Assembly (NCBI GenBank): GCA_016217765.1
Contig: JACRGP010000039.1
Coordinates: forward strand, 1 to 34,455
DNA: 34,455 nt
Direction: 5' to 3'
From: Nitrospinota bacterium
GTDB lineage: Bacteria > Nitrospinota > Nitrospinia > Nitrospinales > JACRGP01
Shown here: positions 6,652 to 33,796 of the stretch, piece after piece
Position numbering within the stretch: the stretch's first letter is position 1
Layout of the letters: every line of letters begins with the position of its first letter
The notes under the pieces: generated by a model
What the model was told of the DNA's origin: nothing
Databases searched by the model: none
Seen by the model: only the letters and a program-made list of their open reading frames with translations
Translations under genes and position numbers: made by a program

Positions 6652-6880
6652 AGAGCGTGTAACAAAATGAAGCATTCCATAACTTCCTCCCCCTTCCAGG
6701 GAACGCCCCGGAACGGGATGGCCAAGACCCGAATTGTTCTCCATGGCGCTTGTTCGCCATCGGAGCCCAGCCCGTTGAGTCCAGCGTCACGCTGGCAGGG
6801 GGCGGTTGGGTGGGGGTAAACGCGCTGAATTTGCACCCCCATCCTGGCCTTCCCCCTCAAGGGGGAAGGAAATTCTCCAG
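6652..6880. repeat. Truncated MITE-like mosaic repeat in the oppB/Nif3 divergent gap
   Basis: AGAGCGTGTAACAAAATGAA (6652-6671) matches the terminal repeat of the element at 22185. It is followed by the modules CTTCCAGGGAACGCCCCGG, a minus-strand copy of the CAGCGTGACGCTGGACTCAAC module (about 6750-6805), and GGTTGGGTGGGGGTAAA with CCTCAAGGGGGAAGG. The opposite terminus is not recognisable, so the copy is one-ended. It fills most of the 319 bp between the divergent genes oppB and the Nif3-like gene; I see no coding sequence here. Confidence 0.75.
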
Positions 6881-12857: not shown

Positions 12858-12950
12858 CCACCAACGTAAACGTTGGATGCAACGCCCGCCTCCGGCTGAC
12901 GCCGAGGCGGGGGCGCTCCCCCTTGCAAAGGGGGCTGGGGGGATTCATGC
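12858..12950. repeat. Partial mosaic repeat between flagellin and the 66-residue gene
   Basis: It holds the perfect hairpin CCAACGT-AA-ACGTTGG (12861-12876), related to CCAGCGT-TC-ACGCTGG in the element at 33440, and then CGCCTCCGGCTGACGCCGAGG, an inverted relative of the CCTCGGCGTCAGCCTGAGGC stretch there. It ends with CTCCCCCTTGCAAAGGGGGC, the C/G-rich arm. No terminal repeats are seen. Confidence 0.6.
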
Positions 12951-12981: not shown

Positions 12982-13836
12982 TTAACCCTGGATGTCGAGC
13001 AGTCTGCCGGGGATTTGCAGGTTTTGCCGGTTCTGGGCGGCTAGGGCTTGCAGGGAAGCCTGCGTCCGGGTCTGGGACAATTGCAGGTTCGAGACTTCCC
13101 GGGCGATGTCCGTCCCGGCCAATTGGCTTTCGGCGGCGGACAGGTTTTCGATCCGAGAACCCAGGGCGTTCACGGCAACGGACAGCCGGGCGCCCGTCGC
13201 TCCAACTCTGCCGCGCGTAGCGTTGATTCGATCGGCCGCGTCCCCCAGCGTAGCGAACGCCTGTAGCGCCCCCTCGACGGTGGAAATGCCGGCTGTCGCG
13301 ATCCCCAGCGCCTGCGTCCCGGCATTTTCGATCACGTTCAGGTTGACCTGGTCCTCCGGACCGCCCCCCGTTCCGACCTGGACATTCACCTGGTTCGGCG
13401 AGTCGGCCCCCAGGTTGCCGTTCAACAGGGGTTGCCCGTTGAACTCCAGGGAGTTGACGGTCCGGTCGATTTCGCCGCGGATGGCCGTGAACTCCTGGTT
13501 CAGGCTTTGCCGTTGCGCGTCGCCAAGGGTCCCGTTGGCGGCCTGGACCGCCAGTTCCCTCCCCCGGGCCACAAGGTCGGAAATCGTCGCCAGCCCGCCC
13601 TCGGCGGTATTGACAAAATTGGCCCCGGCTTCGGTATTGCGGACGGCCTGGGAAAGCGCCTGGATTTCGGAACGCAATTGGGCGCTGATGGAGCTTGCGG
13701 AGGGGTCCTCGCCCGCGCCGGCCAACCGGTTGCCGGAAGCGATTTTCGCCAGCGACGCGGCGGTCTCGGAACGATTGTTCTCGACCGTCCGCAACAACCG
13801 ATCGTTCACATTGCCCAATCCGACGCGTTCGACCAT
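12982..13836 (-). CDS. fliC: Flagellin
   Basis: A 284-residue flagellin with both conserved coiled-coil ends and a very short central region. The N-terminal D0/D1 segment is clear: SLAKIASGNRLAGAGEDPSA, LRSEIQALSQAVRNTEAGAN, and GGLATISDLVARGRELAVQA, with the TR5-recognition-like NQEFTAIRGEIDR. The C-terminal segment has RVGATGARLSVAVNALGSRI and ends QALAAQNRQNLQIPGRLLDIQG, the polymerisation end. The protein is near the minimum size for flagellins, so little surface-exposed domain remains. The start at 13836 follows AAGG with appropriate spacing. It is divergent from the unknown gene at 14037. A sigma-70-like rather than a clear sigma-28 promoter is seen upstream. Confidence 0.95.
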   Translation of the reverse strand: MVERVGLGNVNDRLLRTVENNRSETAASLAKIASGNRLAGAGEDPSASSISAQLRSEIQALSQAVRNTEAGANFVNTAEGGLATISDLVARGRELAVQAANGTLGDAQRQSLNQEFTAIRGEIDRTVNSLEFNGQPLLNGNLGADSPNQVNVQVGTGGGPEDQVNLNVIENAGTQALGIATAGISTVEGALQAFATLGDAADRINATRGRVGATGARLSVAVNALGSRIENLSAAESQLAGTDIAREVSNLQLSQTRTQASLQALAAQNRQNLQIPGRLLDIQG

Positions 13837-13880
13837 GGCAACCTTTCCGCGGGAAGATAGCGAGGCTCTCGTATGACTCC

Positions 13881-13909
13881 AAATTAATACGAGACGGCCC
13901 CTTTGTCAA
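13881..13909 (-). promoter_or_regulatory. Candidate sigma-70-type promoter for flagellin
   Basis: A perfect TTGACA (minus strand, 13909-13904) and TAATTT (13886-13881) are spaced exactly 17 bp, about 45 bp upstream of the flagellin ATG. The -10 is weak (three of six matches). No GCCGATAA-like sigma-28 box was found in this gap, in contrast to the gene at 15132. Confidence 0.4.
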
Positions 13910-14036: not shown

Positions 14037-14654
14037 ATGAAGATTTTTATCAACGGGATAGAAGACGCCCAGAAGTATGAAGGAACGACCCTGGGCGACG
14101 TCTTGCGCCAAATCAGGCAATCCAAGGTCCTGAAAGGCACGTTCATCAGCAATTTGAAGCTCAACCGTCAGGAATCGGACCTCCGCTCGGAGGAAGTCTT
14201 GCAGACCTCCATACCCAAAATCGAGACTCTGGAAATCGAAATCGGTTCCATAGGCACGCTCATCACAAGAAACATTGCCAACGCCGAGGAATATCTCAAA
14301 AAACTGATTCCCGGAATTCAAAAAGCCGCCGGGCTATTCCATTCGGGAAGCGAACAAGAAGCCAACCAGTTTTTCATCAAAATCGTGGACGGAATCGACT
14401 GGCTTTCCCAAGTCGTGGATTCGGTCGTCGATGCCATGGGCAAGGACGCCAACGATATCCGTGTTAACGGGAAAACCGTCATGGAACGCAAAAACCAGCT
14501 CGTCGACCTAATCCAGCAAATGCTGAACGCCAATAAAAACAAGGACTGGGTGCTTCTGGCCGATTTATTGGAGTACGAAATCCTCCCTTTTTACCAGGAA
14601 TGGCAAACCTTTCTCCCACAACTCCGCCAAGCCGGATTGGAAAAAGTCAACTGA
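14037..14654 (+). CDS. Uncharacterised protein divergent from flagellin
   Basis: A 205-residue soluble, mostly helical protein starting MKIFINGIEDAQKYEGTTLG. The N-terminal 60 residues look like a small beta/alpha unit with TTLGDVLRQIRQSK; the rest (for example NAEEYLKKLIPGIQKAAGLF, IVDGIDWLSQVVDSVVDAMG, LADLLEYEILPFYQEWQTFL) is predicted helical and resembles the helical-bundle style of flagellar export chaperones, though I see no diagnostic FliS or FlgN motif. No signal peptide. It lies between flagellin and the FliA-dependent gene. A flagellar accessory or chaperone role is a positional inference. No strong ribosome-binding site is visible. Confidence 0.75.
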   Translation: MKIFINGIEDAQKYEGTTLGDVLRQIRQSKVLKGTFISNLKLNRQESDLRSEEVLQTSIPKIETLEIEIGSIGTLITRNIANAEEYLKKLIPGIQKAAGLFHSGSEQEANQFFIKIVDGIDWLSQVVDSVVDAMGKDANDIRVNGKTVMERKNQLVDLIQQMLNANKNKDWVLLADLLEYEILPFYQEWQTFLPQLRQAGLEKVN

Positions 14655-14767: not shown

Positions 14768-14794
14768 TAAAGTTTATTTTTTTTTTGCCGATAA
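14768..14794 (+). promoter_or_regulatory. Sigma-28 (FliA) promoter
   Basis: TAAAGTTT (14768-14775), an 11-bp spacer made almost entirely of T, and GCCGATAA (14787-14794) match the enterobacterial FliA consensus TAAAGTTT-N11-GCCGATAA at every position. Transcription would begin near 14800 and read rightward through an ATG-free leader into the gene at 15132. This places that gene in the late flagellar class. Confidence 0.9.
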
Positions 14795-14799
14795 AGAAA

Positions 14800-15131
14800 T
14801 TGGCGAGGTCTCGATAACCGAGACACGGGGGTTTCTTTCAACTCGGCTAAGGGATATACTTAAAGCGAGAAATCCCGGCATCGCCCCAATACCAGCGATA
14901 CGGGAAGGAGGGCCGCTAAAAAGACCGAAAATTCATTTTGGAAATTAAATTTTTTTGCCCTTTAAGTCGGGACGGAGATCCTGAAAATCCTGAACAACTT
15001 ATCGGGGAAAAACGTTAATACCTTAATCGAAAAGACGACGTTTTGGCGAAAAAGCCCGCCGGGGGGTGTGGCAAACAAAACCTTCATAACGCCAAAACGG
15101 GATGGAGTCCATTACAGGGGAGAGTACCGCC
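14800..15131 (+). promoter_or_regulatory. Long ATG-free structured 5' leader
   Basis: From the predicted sigma-28 start to 15100 there is no ATG on the plus strand. Three hairpins can be drawn: GTCTCG/CGAGAC (14808-14813 with 14819-14824, loop ATAAC); CCCG..ATCGC/GCGAT.CGGG (14874-14884 with 14895-14904, 10-nt loop), immediately followed by AAGGAGGG; and a perfect 10-bp stem CGTTTTGGCG/CGCCAAAACG (15039-15048 with 15090-15099) enclosing 41 nt, ending 16 nt before the Shine-Dalgarno AGGGGAGAG. Several GGA triplets could be CsrA sites. I could not match it to the c-di-GMP-I riboswitch consensus. The upstream part of this 477-bp gap, 14655-14767, is A/T-rich with no gene seen. Confidence 0.6.
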
Positions 15132-15944
15132 ATGGCTCAAGTCGATAACGCACAAGGCATTCAACAGATCATTCCACGCCCGGGGATTGTCCCCGAACCG
15201 CAAAGAAACCAGCCGCAAAACCAACGCGTCGAGGAAGAGGACAACCAGGACCGGCAACAAGCCAGACGTCTGGAAACCCAGGACCAAAACCGCGTCCAAC
15301 GTCAGGACCAGGACCGGGTCGATATCCAGAGGACCGGCCAGGAGCAGGCCCAGACCGGCAGGGCGGACGACCGCGCCCGGCAGGAAGACAGGCGTCAGGA
15401 AGTCCGCGACCAACAGCAAACCCAGCGTCAGGAAAACCGGGCCGCCGCCACTGGAGAAAACATCCAAGGCGTCCGCATCCCCCGTCCGGGAAGAGTTCCC
15501 ATCCAGGGAGGGGGAGGAGGAATTCAACAAAGGATACAGCAACAGGAAGAAGTCCGGCAGGAGAGAGAATTTCGCGAACACCCCGCCTTGGAAGCTCCGC
15601 CGCAAAACGTCGGACGCATCAGCCTCGATCAAGGGCCGCCCCAACCGCCACAACCCGGCGAAGCGAACGCCGGACAGGACAGGCCTCCCACGGTCATCGA
15701 GCGGCAAATCCGCGACGCCACGGAAACCAACGTACGGACTCAGCAGGCGCAAAACCAGCGTCCGGAAAGGACTCGGGAAACGCAAAACCGTCAACAGGTC
15801 CAGGCGAATGAAGCCAACGACCAAGCGCGCGCTCGGGAGACAGAACGGCAACGGGCGAACGAAGCGAGGAACAACGAGCGCCAACAACGTAACGTGGTTT
15901 CGACGCAAACTCAAAGAGGACGAAACGTGGACCGCTTGATTTAG
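15132..15944 (+). CDS. Gln/Arg-rich low-complexity protein under FliA control
   Basis: A 270-residue protein starting MAQVDNAQGIQQIIPRPG, dominated by Gln, Arg, Glu, Asp and Asn in irregular short repeats (such as RQDQDRVDIQRTGQEQAQTG), with a Pro/Gly-rich middle (about residues 115-195) and the terminus RGRNVDRLI. It should be largely disordered or extended helix; no membrane segment, signal or known domain is seen. The start at 15132 has AGGGGAGAG seven bases upstream; an in-frame ATG at 15102 lacks one. Long open frames in two other registers cover the same stretch, but this one has the ribosome-binding site, the promoter orientation and a terminator after it. Its place between flagellin and fliD and its sigma-28 promoter suggest a filament-associated or secreted flagellar component. 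Confidence 0.7.
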   Translation: MAQVDNAQGIQQIIPRPGIVPEPQRNQPQNQRVEEEDNQDRQQARRLETQDQNRVQRQDQDRVDIQRTGQEQAQTGRADDRARQEDRRQEVRDQQQTQRQENRAAATGENIQGVRIPRPGRVPIQGGGGGIQQRIQQQEEVRQEREFREHPALEAPPQNVGRISLDQGPPQPPQPGEANAGQDRPPTVIERQIRDATETNVRTQQAQNQRPERTRETQNRQQVQANEANDQARARETERQRANEARNNERQQRNVVSTQTQRGRNVDRLI

Positions 15945-16237: not shown

Positions 16238-18073
16238 ATGGAAGTCAACGGTTTCCCCAGCGCTTACTTTCCGCCCTTCTCGTTCCTGCGGCCCGCGCCG
16301 ACGGAGTCCCAGGCGCGGGAAGCGCGGACCCAGTTGACGACGCCCGGCAGTCCGCCGCCTTCCTTGAGCGATACCCTGTTCTCTTCCTTTATATTCGTCT
16401 CGCAAAAAACCCCGCCAGCCGAGCTGACGGGTCCCCTGGCCGCCATGCGCATGCTCGATTCGTTCAACACGCTGAAGACGCTCTCGGACCAGACCAAAAT
16501 TCCCATCGTTTCCAACCTGGACAGGAAACCCCGGTTTTCCGAACTGCAACAGGACACGTTGAACGACATAAAGGATTCCGCCCAGACTTTAAGCTCGACC
16601 GTCGATCGGTTGTCGCGGAAAAGCTCCTTGAACACGCGCGCCGTCAAAACGACGCCGACCGGCATTGTGAGCGCCCAGGCCGGCAACGCTACTCCCTTGA
16701 CCGCGGTCTCGGTGGTTGCCAGGCAAGTTTCGACCGGAAACGCCCTGTCCTCCAACGTTCAATCGTTCCCTTTTCCCGCCTTGGGCAAGACCGGGAGCTT
16801 CGTCGTCAACGGGGTCAAAGTTTCGGTAGTCGCCTCGGACACCATCGTCACCTTGAAAAACAAAATCAATCGCGGGGAGGACACCAACGGGAACGGGGTC
16901 CTGGACGGGCCGGAAGACCTCAACGGCAACGGCGCGGCGGACGTCATAACCGTGGCGCCAAGCAAATTCGGCCCCGGCGTTTACGTCGCCGAGGACGCAA
17001 ACGGCGACGGCCAGTTGGCTCCCGCCGAGGACGCAAACGACAACAAGCGTCTGGACGGCGGGACCGCCGAGCATAAAGTCGCCGCGACCATCGAGGACAA
17101 CCGTTTGAAACTGACCAGCCAGGCCGGCGGATCGACCAAAATCGACCTGCAAGACCCGAACGACATCCTTTTGTCCCTGGGTTTTTTTGAACTGAACGGC
17201 AAAGGGTTGCCCATCCAAAAAGAGTTTCAGTTCAATTCCGACGAGCCGCCGCGAAATTTGATCGTCAACCCGCGGAAAGCGGAGATCGAGGTCGGCGGAA
17301 AAGTCGCGACCAGCGACTCCAACGACTTCTCCGGCGTGATCGACCAGGGCGTTTTGACCGTCAAGAAGACATCCGGCAAAAAGGTGGCCGTGGACATCTC
17401 CCTTGACGCCGAGTCCGCCATGAGTCAGATTAAAACGTTGTTCGACAACTACAACGATACGATTACAAAGATCAATCGCGAGTTGCGGTTTTCAAAAGTG
17501 TTTCAAACCGATCCGGACGTCCAGCGCGCGCGTCAAGACCTGGTATCCAGCGCTCAAGGGAAAATCCCCGAAATCACGGAGCAAAACCGGGAGATCGACA
17601 AAATACGCGGCAAAGCGCAAAACCTGAACATGATCGGCTTCAAGTTCCAAAACACGGAGAAGGACGTTTTGAACGAAACGATGGTGACCAGTAACGTCCA
17701 GGCCATCAAGGACGGACTCACGTTCCCGTTCAAGAACGCGCCCAACGACCTGTTACGGCGGTTGTCCTCGGTCGGCATACAAACCGTCGCCGACGATACC
17801 GTGGCGGTGGACGAGGTGGAACTGAAAAAGGCCCTGGACATCAATACGGCCGGGGTCCTGGACATTTTAAACAACCCGGACACGGGGGTCCTCCCAAAAC
17901 TGCAAAACCAACTCTCCAAGGCGCTTGAAAAGGACTTTGGGGCCATCGACGTCAAGCGGACCAAAATACAAAATACCTCCCGAATTCCCTCGGCGTTGCA
18001 GGAGATTTTCCAAAAACTCATCAAGAACGAAACGGAAAAAAGTAAAACTCAAACGTTGATCGCGGTGGCCTGA
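16238..18073 (+). CDS. fliD: Flagellar hook-associated protein 2 / filament cap (FliD) with calcium-loop-like insert
   Basis: A 611-residue protein. Residues about 100-170 match the FliD N-terminal domain (LSSTVDRLSRKSSLNTRAVK, IVSAQAGNATPLTAVSVVARQVSTGN); residues about 185-211 match the flagellin hook IN motif (GSFVVNGVKVSV..SDTIVTLKNKIN). The C-terminal third (AMSQIKTLFDNYNDTITKIN) fits the FliD C-terminal domain, ending in a helical tail. Two features are unusual: a roughly 95-residue N-terminal extension ahead of the FliD domain, and two acidic loops, DTNGNGVLDGPE-DLNGNG (215-232) and DANGDGQLAPAE-DANDN (253-269), with the D-x-N-G-(N/D)-G spacing of EF-hand or dockerin-type calcium sites. 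It is the first gene of fliD-flgN-flgM. The ribosome-binding site is weak. Confidence 0.85.
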   Translation: MEVNGFPSAYFPPFSFLRPAPTESQAREARTQLTTPGSPPPSLSDTLFSSFIFVSQKTPPAELTGPLAAMRMLDSFNTLKTLSDQTKIPIVSNLDRKPRFSELQQDTLNDIKDSAQTLSSTVDRLSRKSSLNTRAVKTTPTGIVSAQAGNATPLTAVSVVARQVSTGNALSSNVQSFPFPALGKTGSFVVNGVKVSVVASDTIVTLKNKINRGEDTNGNGVLDGPEDLNGNGAADVITVAPSKFGPGVYVAEDANGDGQLAPAEDANDNKRLDGGTAEHKVAATIEDNRLKLTSQAGGSTKIDLQDPNDILLSLGFFELNGKGLPIQKEFQFNSDEPPRNLIVNPRKAEIEVGGKVATSDSNDFSGVIDQGVLTVKKTSGKKVAVDISLDAESAMSQIKTLFDNYNDTITKINRELRFSKVFQTDPDVQRARQDLVSSAQGKIPEITEQNREIDKIRGKAQNLNMIGFKFQNTEKDVLNETMVTSNVQAIKDGLTFPFKNAPNDLLRRLSSVGIQTVADDTVAVDEVELKKALDINTAGVLDILNNPDTGVLPKLQNQLSKALEKDFGAIDVKRTKIQNTSRIPSALQEIFQKLIKNETEKSKTQTLIAVA

Positions 18074-22096: not shown

Positions 22097-22184
22097 CGCG
22101 GACGGATATCCGCCGCTGGAGATCGAGGGTCAAACGGGAATTTTCTCCGGCAAAAACAGAGGGGGGACCGGGGAGGAGTTACTT

Positions 22185-22343
22185 AGAGCGTCTAACAAAA
22201 TGAAGTCCTCTCCAATTCCCTCCCCCTTCCAGGGGGAGGTTAGGTGGGGGTGAAAAGCCAGCCCACCCTCCCCCAGCCCCCTCCCTCAAGGGAGGGGAGT
22301 AATTTGAGGGTCGAGCCAAAGGGTTCATTTTGTTAGACGCTCT
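22185..22343. repeat. MITE-like element with perfect 20-bp terminal inverted repeats
   Basis: AGAGCGTCTAACAAAATGAA (22185-22204) and its exact reverse complement (22324-22343) bound a 159-bp unit. The interior has two G/C-rich hairpin arms (CCTCCCCCTTCCAGGGGGAGG near 22218 and CCCCTCCCTCAAGGGAGGGG near 22280) and GGTGGGGGTGAAAAGCC. No reading frame for a transposase is present, so it would be a non-autonomous element. A target-site duplication cannot be fixed: the flanks read CTT on the left and TAT on the right. The right end overlaps the last codons of the radical SAM gene. Confidence 0.85.
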
Positions 22344-25394: not shown

Positions 25395-25691
25395 GAGCGC
25401 ATAACAAAATGAAATCCCCCATAATTCCCTCCCCCTTGACGGGGGAGGTTAGGTGGGGGTGAAAAGCCGGGCAAGCGCCCGGAGGCGGCGCCGGGTCCAA
25501 CGTCCACGCTGGTCACCCTCCCCCAGCCCCCTCCCCAGCGTGACGCTGGACTCAACAGGCTCGGCTCCGATGGCGAATGGGAGTCATCGGGGGCAATCCG
25601 GGCTTGGCCATCCCGCTCCGGGGCGTTCCCCGGTCAAGGGAGGGGGGTAATTTGAGGGTCAAGCCAAATGGTTCATTTTGTTACGCGCTCT
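25394..25691. repeat. MITE-like mosaic element (298 bp) between leuD and priA
   Basis: The ends AGAGCGCATAACAAAATGAA (25394-25413) and the reverse complement of AGAGCGCGTAACAAAATGAA (25672-25691) match at 19 of 20 positions. The interior contains GGTTAGGTGGGGGTGAAAAG, CCGGGCAAGCGCCCGG, a CCCTCCCCCAGCCCCCTCC arm, then a roughly 150-bp block starting CAGCGTGACGCTGGACTCAA that is nearly identical to the block near 33645. It fills most of the 416-bp gap to priA; no gene is seen in it. Confidence 0.85.
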
Positions 25692-33439: not shown

Positions 33440-33796
33440 AGAGCGCCTGACAAAACGAAGTTTTCCATAACTATCCTCCCCCTTGAAGGGGGAGGGCAGG
33501 TGGGGGTGCCGGGCAAGCGCCCGGAGGCGATGCGGCGATGACGCTTCGCGATCGCCGAGGCGCAATTTCCGCCTCGGCGTCAGCCTGAGGCGGCGCCGGA
33601 TCCAGCGTTCACGCTGGCCACCCTCCCCCAGCCCCCTCCCCAGCGTGACGCTGGACTCAACAGGCTCGGCTCCGATGGCGAATGGGAGTCATCGGGGGCA
33701 AGCCGGGCTTGGCTATCCCGTTCCGGGGCGTTCCCCGGTCAAGGGAGGGGAGTAATTTGAGGGTCGAGCCAAAGGGTTCGTTTTGTTAGACGCTCT
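33440..33796. repeat. Longest MITE-like mosaic element (357 bp) between bcp and the DUF1844 gene
   Basis: The ends AGAGCGCCTGACAAAACGAA (33440-33459) and the reverse complement of AGAGCGTCTAACAAAACGAA (33777-33796) match at 18 of 20 positions. It shares its interior with the element at 25394 but has an extra 60-bp segment (about 33535-33597, with CCGAGGCGC and GCCTCGGCG forming a hairpin). It occupies nearly the whole 407-bp gap between the divergent genes, so promoters for both must lie inside it or be very short. No gene is seen in it. Confidence 0.85.

Follow-up and report, generated by a model that had tools for sequence, protein, structure and literature searches.

The window analysed here, a stretch of 34,455 nucleotides, corresponds to contig C155 of a 71%-complete Nitrospinota genome. 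From left to right, the locus of interest comprises genes for a short flagellin and for a protein without assigned family, an untranslated leader, a gene for a Q/E/R-rich protein, fliD, and FlgN-like and FlgM-like genes, the latter two with scores below the Pfam cut-offs (Table 1). The comparison set covered 64 genomes of the order (Nitrospinota), with the window genome designated G000 and its sister species G001. We analysed 41 leaders of the Q/E/R-rich gene, to which five were added later; 45 complete leaders entered the count of the counter-directed promoter P2. The gene without assigned family occurs order-wide and adjoins promoter P1. It gave a sub-threshold match to a cyanophycin-synthetase-like N-terminal domain and nothing better, and distant homologues are found in other orders of the class without the promoter pair.

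Table 1. Coordinates of genes, promoters, and leader elements in the window
Feature	Position	Strand	Remarks
Short flagellin	12982-13836	minus	
Sigma-70-like promoter of the short flagellin, TTGACA-N17-TATTAAT	13837-13900	minus	Read from the sequence
Gene without assigned family	14037-14654	plus	
P1, sigma-28 promoter TAAAGTTT-N11-GCCGATAA	14768-14794	plus	Exact sequence; predicted +1 at 14802
Untranslated leader of the 15132 gene	14802-15131	plus	330 nt, from predicted +1 to conserved start codon
Predicted overlap of P1 and P2 transcripts	14802-14991	both	190 nt, from predicted starts
P2, sigma-28 promoter TAAGGTAT-N11-CCCGATAA	14999-15025	minus	12.6 bits; predicted +1 at 14991, reading left
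10-bp stem of the earlier note	15039-15048/15090-15099	plus	Present; 3% of shuffles
Ribosome-binding site GGGGAGAG	15117-15124	plus	Just 5' of the conserved ATG at 15132
P1-driven gene, 270-aa disordered Q/E/R-rich protein	15132-15944	plus	MAQ/MAE start and tail G-Q/R-N-V-D-R-L-I conserved order-wide
P3, third sigma-28 promoter, in the gap between the 15132 gene and fliD	16208-16182	minus	17.9 bits; points away from fliD
fliD	16238-18073		Downstream of the Q/E/R-rich gene

P1 is located about 1.5 kb upstream of fliD. The earlier note had described it as a consensus sigma-28 promoter, and the match is indeed exact: the site agrees with the FliA consensus TAAA(GTTT)-N11-(G)CCGATAA in full. At 28.7 bits, it outscores every other sigma-28 match in the 34-kb window; shuffled windows contained 0-3 matches of at least 8 bits, and P1 is clearly beyond chance. 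The promoter is syntenic order-wide, in the 41 leaders as well as in the five added later. Relatives with an intact locus carry TAAAGTTT-N11-NCCGATAA at the equivalent place, mostly 1.1-1.9 kb upstream of fliD; a leader comes next, and then a start codon with MAE, MAQ, or a similar beginning of the protein. A purine occupies the predicted P1 +1, eight bases past the -10 element, in 38/38 relatives, and the +1 given for the window was estimated from the initiator pattern. As a control, we inspected flagellin genes: the major flagellin gene in seven genomes, including G000 (C96), has a P1-type sigma-28 promoter. A gene for a FlaG-like protein in G000 (C1) is likewise preceded by a sigma-28 motif, as judged by inspection. 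In its -35 and -10 elements and their spacing, P1 resembles FliA (sigma-28) late promoters, for example those of flagellin genes, and it would also drive a late gene near fliD. In contrast to ordinary FliA late promoters, P1 is faced by a second sigma-28 promoter within its leader.

The claim of a long leader on a late flagellar gene behind the sigma-28 promoter was borne out as well. The MAE or MAQ start is conserved in relatives, which identifies 15132, and not the in-frame ATG at 15102, as the true start codon. Downstream of its P1-type promoter, flagellin mRNA in this order begins with a leader of roughly 160-320 nt; thus, long leaders are usual for late flagellar genes here. The region from 14768 to 15131 is 96.7% identical to that of the sister species. 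Lower values were obtained for fliD (91.6%), the downstream gene (92.6%), and other (flanking) intergenic DNA (71-94%), which indicates constraint within the genus. Outside the genus, little of the leader can be aligned well apart from the two promoters. A Pfam search of the 15132-15944 product returned no family. Its C-terminal tail (G-x-N-V-D-x-x-I) resembles the tails GNKIDVLA and GNNVDVTA of two other small proteins (L161, L168), both encoded downstream of sigma-28 promoters, and is perhaps an export or chaperone signal shared with them.

The second promoter, P2, is missing from the earlier note's description of the leader. It was first noticed by reading related leaders, in which TTATCGG-N14-ACTTTA, the mirror image of P1, recurs. 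We built a position weight matrix (PWM) from forward P1 promoters only and then scanned the rest of each leader on both strands. A minus-strand site of 12-27 bits was detected in 39 of the 41 leaders, compared with means of about -3 in shuffled leaders, and the second-best plus-strand match in these 41 leaders was at null level. Together with four further genomes, P2 equivalents are present in 43 of the 45 complete leaders; the exceptions are G007, a member of family f4 with a 108-nt leader, and G033. A PWM derived from family f2 alone recovers P2 in f1 and f3. Despite a variable spacer sequence, the spacing is N11 in all sites but one (N10). At the predicted P2 +1, again eight bases past the -10 element, all 39 of 39 sites have a purine, and an initiator, YRRG at positions 7-10, is common to P1 and P2 (CAGG for P2 of the window). 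This pattern had not been used in finding the sites. Although the relatives do not count as independent samples, three families and about twelve genera possess the pair. P2 of the window itself is degenerate, its 12.6 bits comparing with 18-28 bits for P1 promoters; 7 of 2000 shuffles reach this score. In relatives, the predicted transcripts from P1 and P2 would overlap by 49-212 nt. No P1/P2 pair was found in five class-level outgroups with the upstream gene (G065, G066, G071, G072, G076), so the pair looks order-specific. We rejected the possibility that P1 and P2 are the arms of an invertible element, as the 11-nt spacers show no repetition. In two of eight flagellin leaders examined, namely L159 (G000's flagellin) and L166, the minus strand also carries sigma-28-like sites, which are weaker (11.8 and 16.1 bits).

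P2 drives no leftward gene in any lineage checked, and the nearest gene to its left reads rightward. In genus g8, P2 persists, no leftward gene starts near P1, and neither the upstream gene nor the flagellin was found beside P2. The sequence comparison gives good support to the existence of the two promoters, to the way they point, to their conservation, and to the lack of a leftward gene. An assignment of P2 to the short flagellin gene was rejected, since this gene has its own sigma-70-like promoter and lies far away in some genera, and since P2 is kept in g8 without the flagellin. The sigma-70-like promoter, instead of a sigma-28 promoter, is visible in several relatives too, and the short flagellin may be an early gene. 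A conserved terminator for the P2 RNA was not found across lineages, nor was any intrinsic terminator within the leader, for either transcript, common to lineages. On the plus strand, such a terminator is restricted to some g8 leaders (L088, L090, L098), where the intrinsic-terminator-like hairpin AAAAAGCC-UUUGUUUUC-GGGCUUUUU lies between P1 and P2; attenuation or a short sigma-28 RNA is possible there.

Previously, the leader had been read as a structured control element. It indeed contains no plus-strand ATG until 15101, but this is also true of 8% of dinucleotide shuffles, and the leaders of most relatives have ATGs. The ATG-free course, being marginal and not conserved, was therefore rejected as a signal. 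The perfect 10-bp stem exists, but it is likewise marginal and not conserved outside the genus, and the earlier note itself had named missing stem conservation in homologous leaders as refuting its reading. When leaders from other genera of the family are aligned, a gap takes the place of the stem region, and the stem of the sister species carries one U-A to U-G change. Whole-leader folding energy gave a z of about -1.5 to -1.8 (two runs), and the structure of the leader is not beyond chance. The Shine-Dalgarno-like AAGGAGGG at 14905-14912 has no ATG, GTG, or TTG in reach, but AAGGAGG appears in 7.9% of shuffles; a decoy ribosome-binding site, though conceivable, is not supported beyond chance, and the motif is retained in the sister species only.

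A riboswitch or other ligand-sensing structured element would accommodate the stem and the several drawable hairpins. Rfam scans, however, gave no match above threshold in the window, in the leader at a permissive threshold, or in ten related loci. Sliding consensus folding of both strands, performed per lineage, was near zero in f1, f3, g9, and g10 leaders. It was modest only in g4 and g14 leaders, and the consensus collapsed when these two were folded jointly. Moreover, the 12 substitutions relative to the sister species do not spare the predicted fold, which they disturb no less than randomly placed changes would. Together with the absence of the stem outside the genus, these results already largely refute the riboswitch reading, to which we give hardly any credence.

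Judged by its anatomy, the leader is more likely to contain a built-in antisense brake than a riboswitch. Our best explanation, which we put at even chances, is that P1 and P2 act as convergent sigma-28 promoters and that antisense RNA from P2, or a polymerase colliding with its counterpart, would limit the late flagellar gene at 15132. P1 would give rise to an mRNA with the 330-nt leader, and P2, firing back toward P1, would produce a noncoding RNA antisense to the 5'-most ~190 nt of this leader. Since P1 and P2 depend on one sigma factor, transcription in the two directions would increase in parallel. Most likely, expression of the 15132 gene would be capped in a self-limiting manner, in step with sigma-28 activity, through polymerase collision or promoter occlusion and/or through antisense pairing and RNase III cleavage. 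As the P2 RNA would run away from the ribosome-binding site, the latter would not be covered. In favor of this explanation, the real flagellin genes of the same genomes use the P1/P2 type of promoter, P2 is recovered with PWMs built from P1 only or, for f1 and f3, from f2 only, and it is kept in g8 where no leftward gene is nearby. On the other hand, P2 of the window is degenerate, G007 and G033 lack P2, the P2 RNA has no conserved terminator, and a promoter-like site need not fire. We infer that P2 fires in the species of the window, that the two RNAs meet, and that output falls as a consequence.

Precedents exist for the individual parts of this arrangement. Bacterial convergent promoter pairs are reported to limit or sharpen expression via polymerase collision and antisense RNA (PMC3134472, PMC4731013, PMC10349824). 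Face-to-face promoters and overlapping transcripts are features that P1/P2 share with the scbA-scbR convergent switch (PMC3134472) and with the synthetic tuning of E. coli expression by antisense transcription (PMC4731013), whereas a single alternative sigma factor serves both P1 and P2, and the antisense side is devoid of protein genes. The intragenic and antisense FliA promoters of E. coli, for instance that of the hypD antisense RNA (PMC4183435), show that a sigma-28 promoter can yield an antisense noncoding RNA, as proposed for P2. They are, however, situated inside genes and their products are very weak or unknown, while P2 belongs to a flagellar leader and is found order-wide.

Convergent transcription has to be weighed against other roles of P2 and of the leader. 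The product of P2 might be a sigma-28-dependent small RNA that acts in trans, pairing with other flagellar mRNAs, in which case the location of P2 in the leader would be incidental. Examples of sigma-28 small RNAs come from Campylobacter (PMC4626219, PMC11187230) and from E. coli (PMC10578931); P2 has no protein gene to drive, and in genera g4 and g14 the P2 RNAs have AAGUAUCC in common in their first ~25 nt. Yet no conserved intrinsic terminator or small-RNA body was found, the sequence of the P2 RNA differs between families, and minus-strand folding is not unusual in most genomes, which leaves this possibility unlikely. CjNC1/CjNC4 of Campylobacter (PMC4626219) and UhpU/MotR/FliX/FlgO of E. 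coli (PMC10578931) are, like the predicted P2 RNA, noncoding and under flagellar sigma control; in contrast to these RNAs, which act in trans, the P2 RNA would be antisense to the leader of its neighbor and has no known body. If the P2-like sites were non-productive or only bound the holoenzyme, the leader would be an ordinary long 5' UTR. The leaders of flagellin mRNAs, which are long as well, and the unremarkable structure of the present leader would fit. Selection is needed, however, to explain why P2 has been kept throughout the order with its spacing exact and its initiator in common with P1, and the leader is conserved more than flanking intergenic DNA. We consider an ordinary UTR quite improbable.

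The leader could also be a target of the FliW-CsrA system, with CsrA blocking translation at GGA sites near the ribosome-binding site, as it does for flagellin. Both csrA and fliW are present in the window genome (G000:C21); across the order, csrA occurs in 48/64 genomes and fliW in 47/64. GGA sites at 15100, 15104, and 15119 lie near the start codon. Genera g4/g14 have a conserved CARGGAY in potential hairpin loops and are the only two other genera in which a motif of this type recurs upstream of the start codon. Over the 41 leaders, however, neither GGA (z 1.2) nor ANGGA (z 1.7) was significantly enriched, and GGA belongs to any Shine-Dalgarno sequence. CsrA control would, moreover, leave the conserved P2 unexplained. 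We judge it improbable, albeit compatible with the convergent-promoter explanation. FliW-CsrA-flagellin homeostasis (PMC6529632) limits a late flagellar product, as proposed here, and CsrA and FliW are encoded in the window genome; that system acts at translation, whereas CsrA is only a candidate for the window leader.

FliA promoters, FliA-dependent antisense and small RNAs (PMC4183435, PMC10578931, PMC4626219), and convergent promoters are already known separately. In the literature covered, which was largely open access, we found no report of a conserved convergent sigma-28 pair in a flagellar leader. Where alternative sigma factors have antisense promoters, these are often written off as noise, since few of them are conserved. 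P2 is retained in three of the four families of the order, in an intergenic leader, and has no gene of its own to drive. It therefore offers a clean natural case for studying the function of conserved antisense transcription. The P1/P2 pair also provides a specific, testable prediction on flagellar control in the largely uncultured phylum Nitrospinota.

The third sigma-28 promoter, P3, is recognizable across the order (relatives L060-L098), in most genomes 20-130 nt before fliD. Its score reaches 28.7 bits in G002/G004, and an N12 variant occurs in several genera. In family f2 (e.g., L093, L079, L069), the gap before fliD holds a conserved candidate RNA of ~265 nt, into which P3 points and for which no Rfam match was obtained. 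The window's own gap has diverged, and no f2-type candidate RNA is recognizable in it. The f2 candidate RNA ends in GGCGGGCG-U-tract (GGCGGGCGU plus a T-run in the DNA), which is able to pair with its own 5' end, and it contains a hairpin whose stem covaries between genera (UAUUGG/CCAAUA, GAAUUGG/CCAAUUC, AUAUAGG/CCUAUAU). With P2 in the leader and P3 at the gap RNA, each of the noncoding parts flanking the P1 gene has a sigma-28 promoter directed against it. Very tentatively, P1 against P2, plus P3 facing a structured 3' RNA in relatives, might constitute an order-wide self-limiting sense/antisense circuit in which the flagellar sigma factor would give rise to a late mRNA together with the antisense brake on it, although we doubt this more than we believe it. 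Elsewhere in the window, interspersed intergenic repeats of ~60-75 bp were observed at 6796-6857, 12886-12946, 22182-22258, 25395-25467, and 33441-33506; they are common to the window and the sister species, where they occupy other positions.
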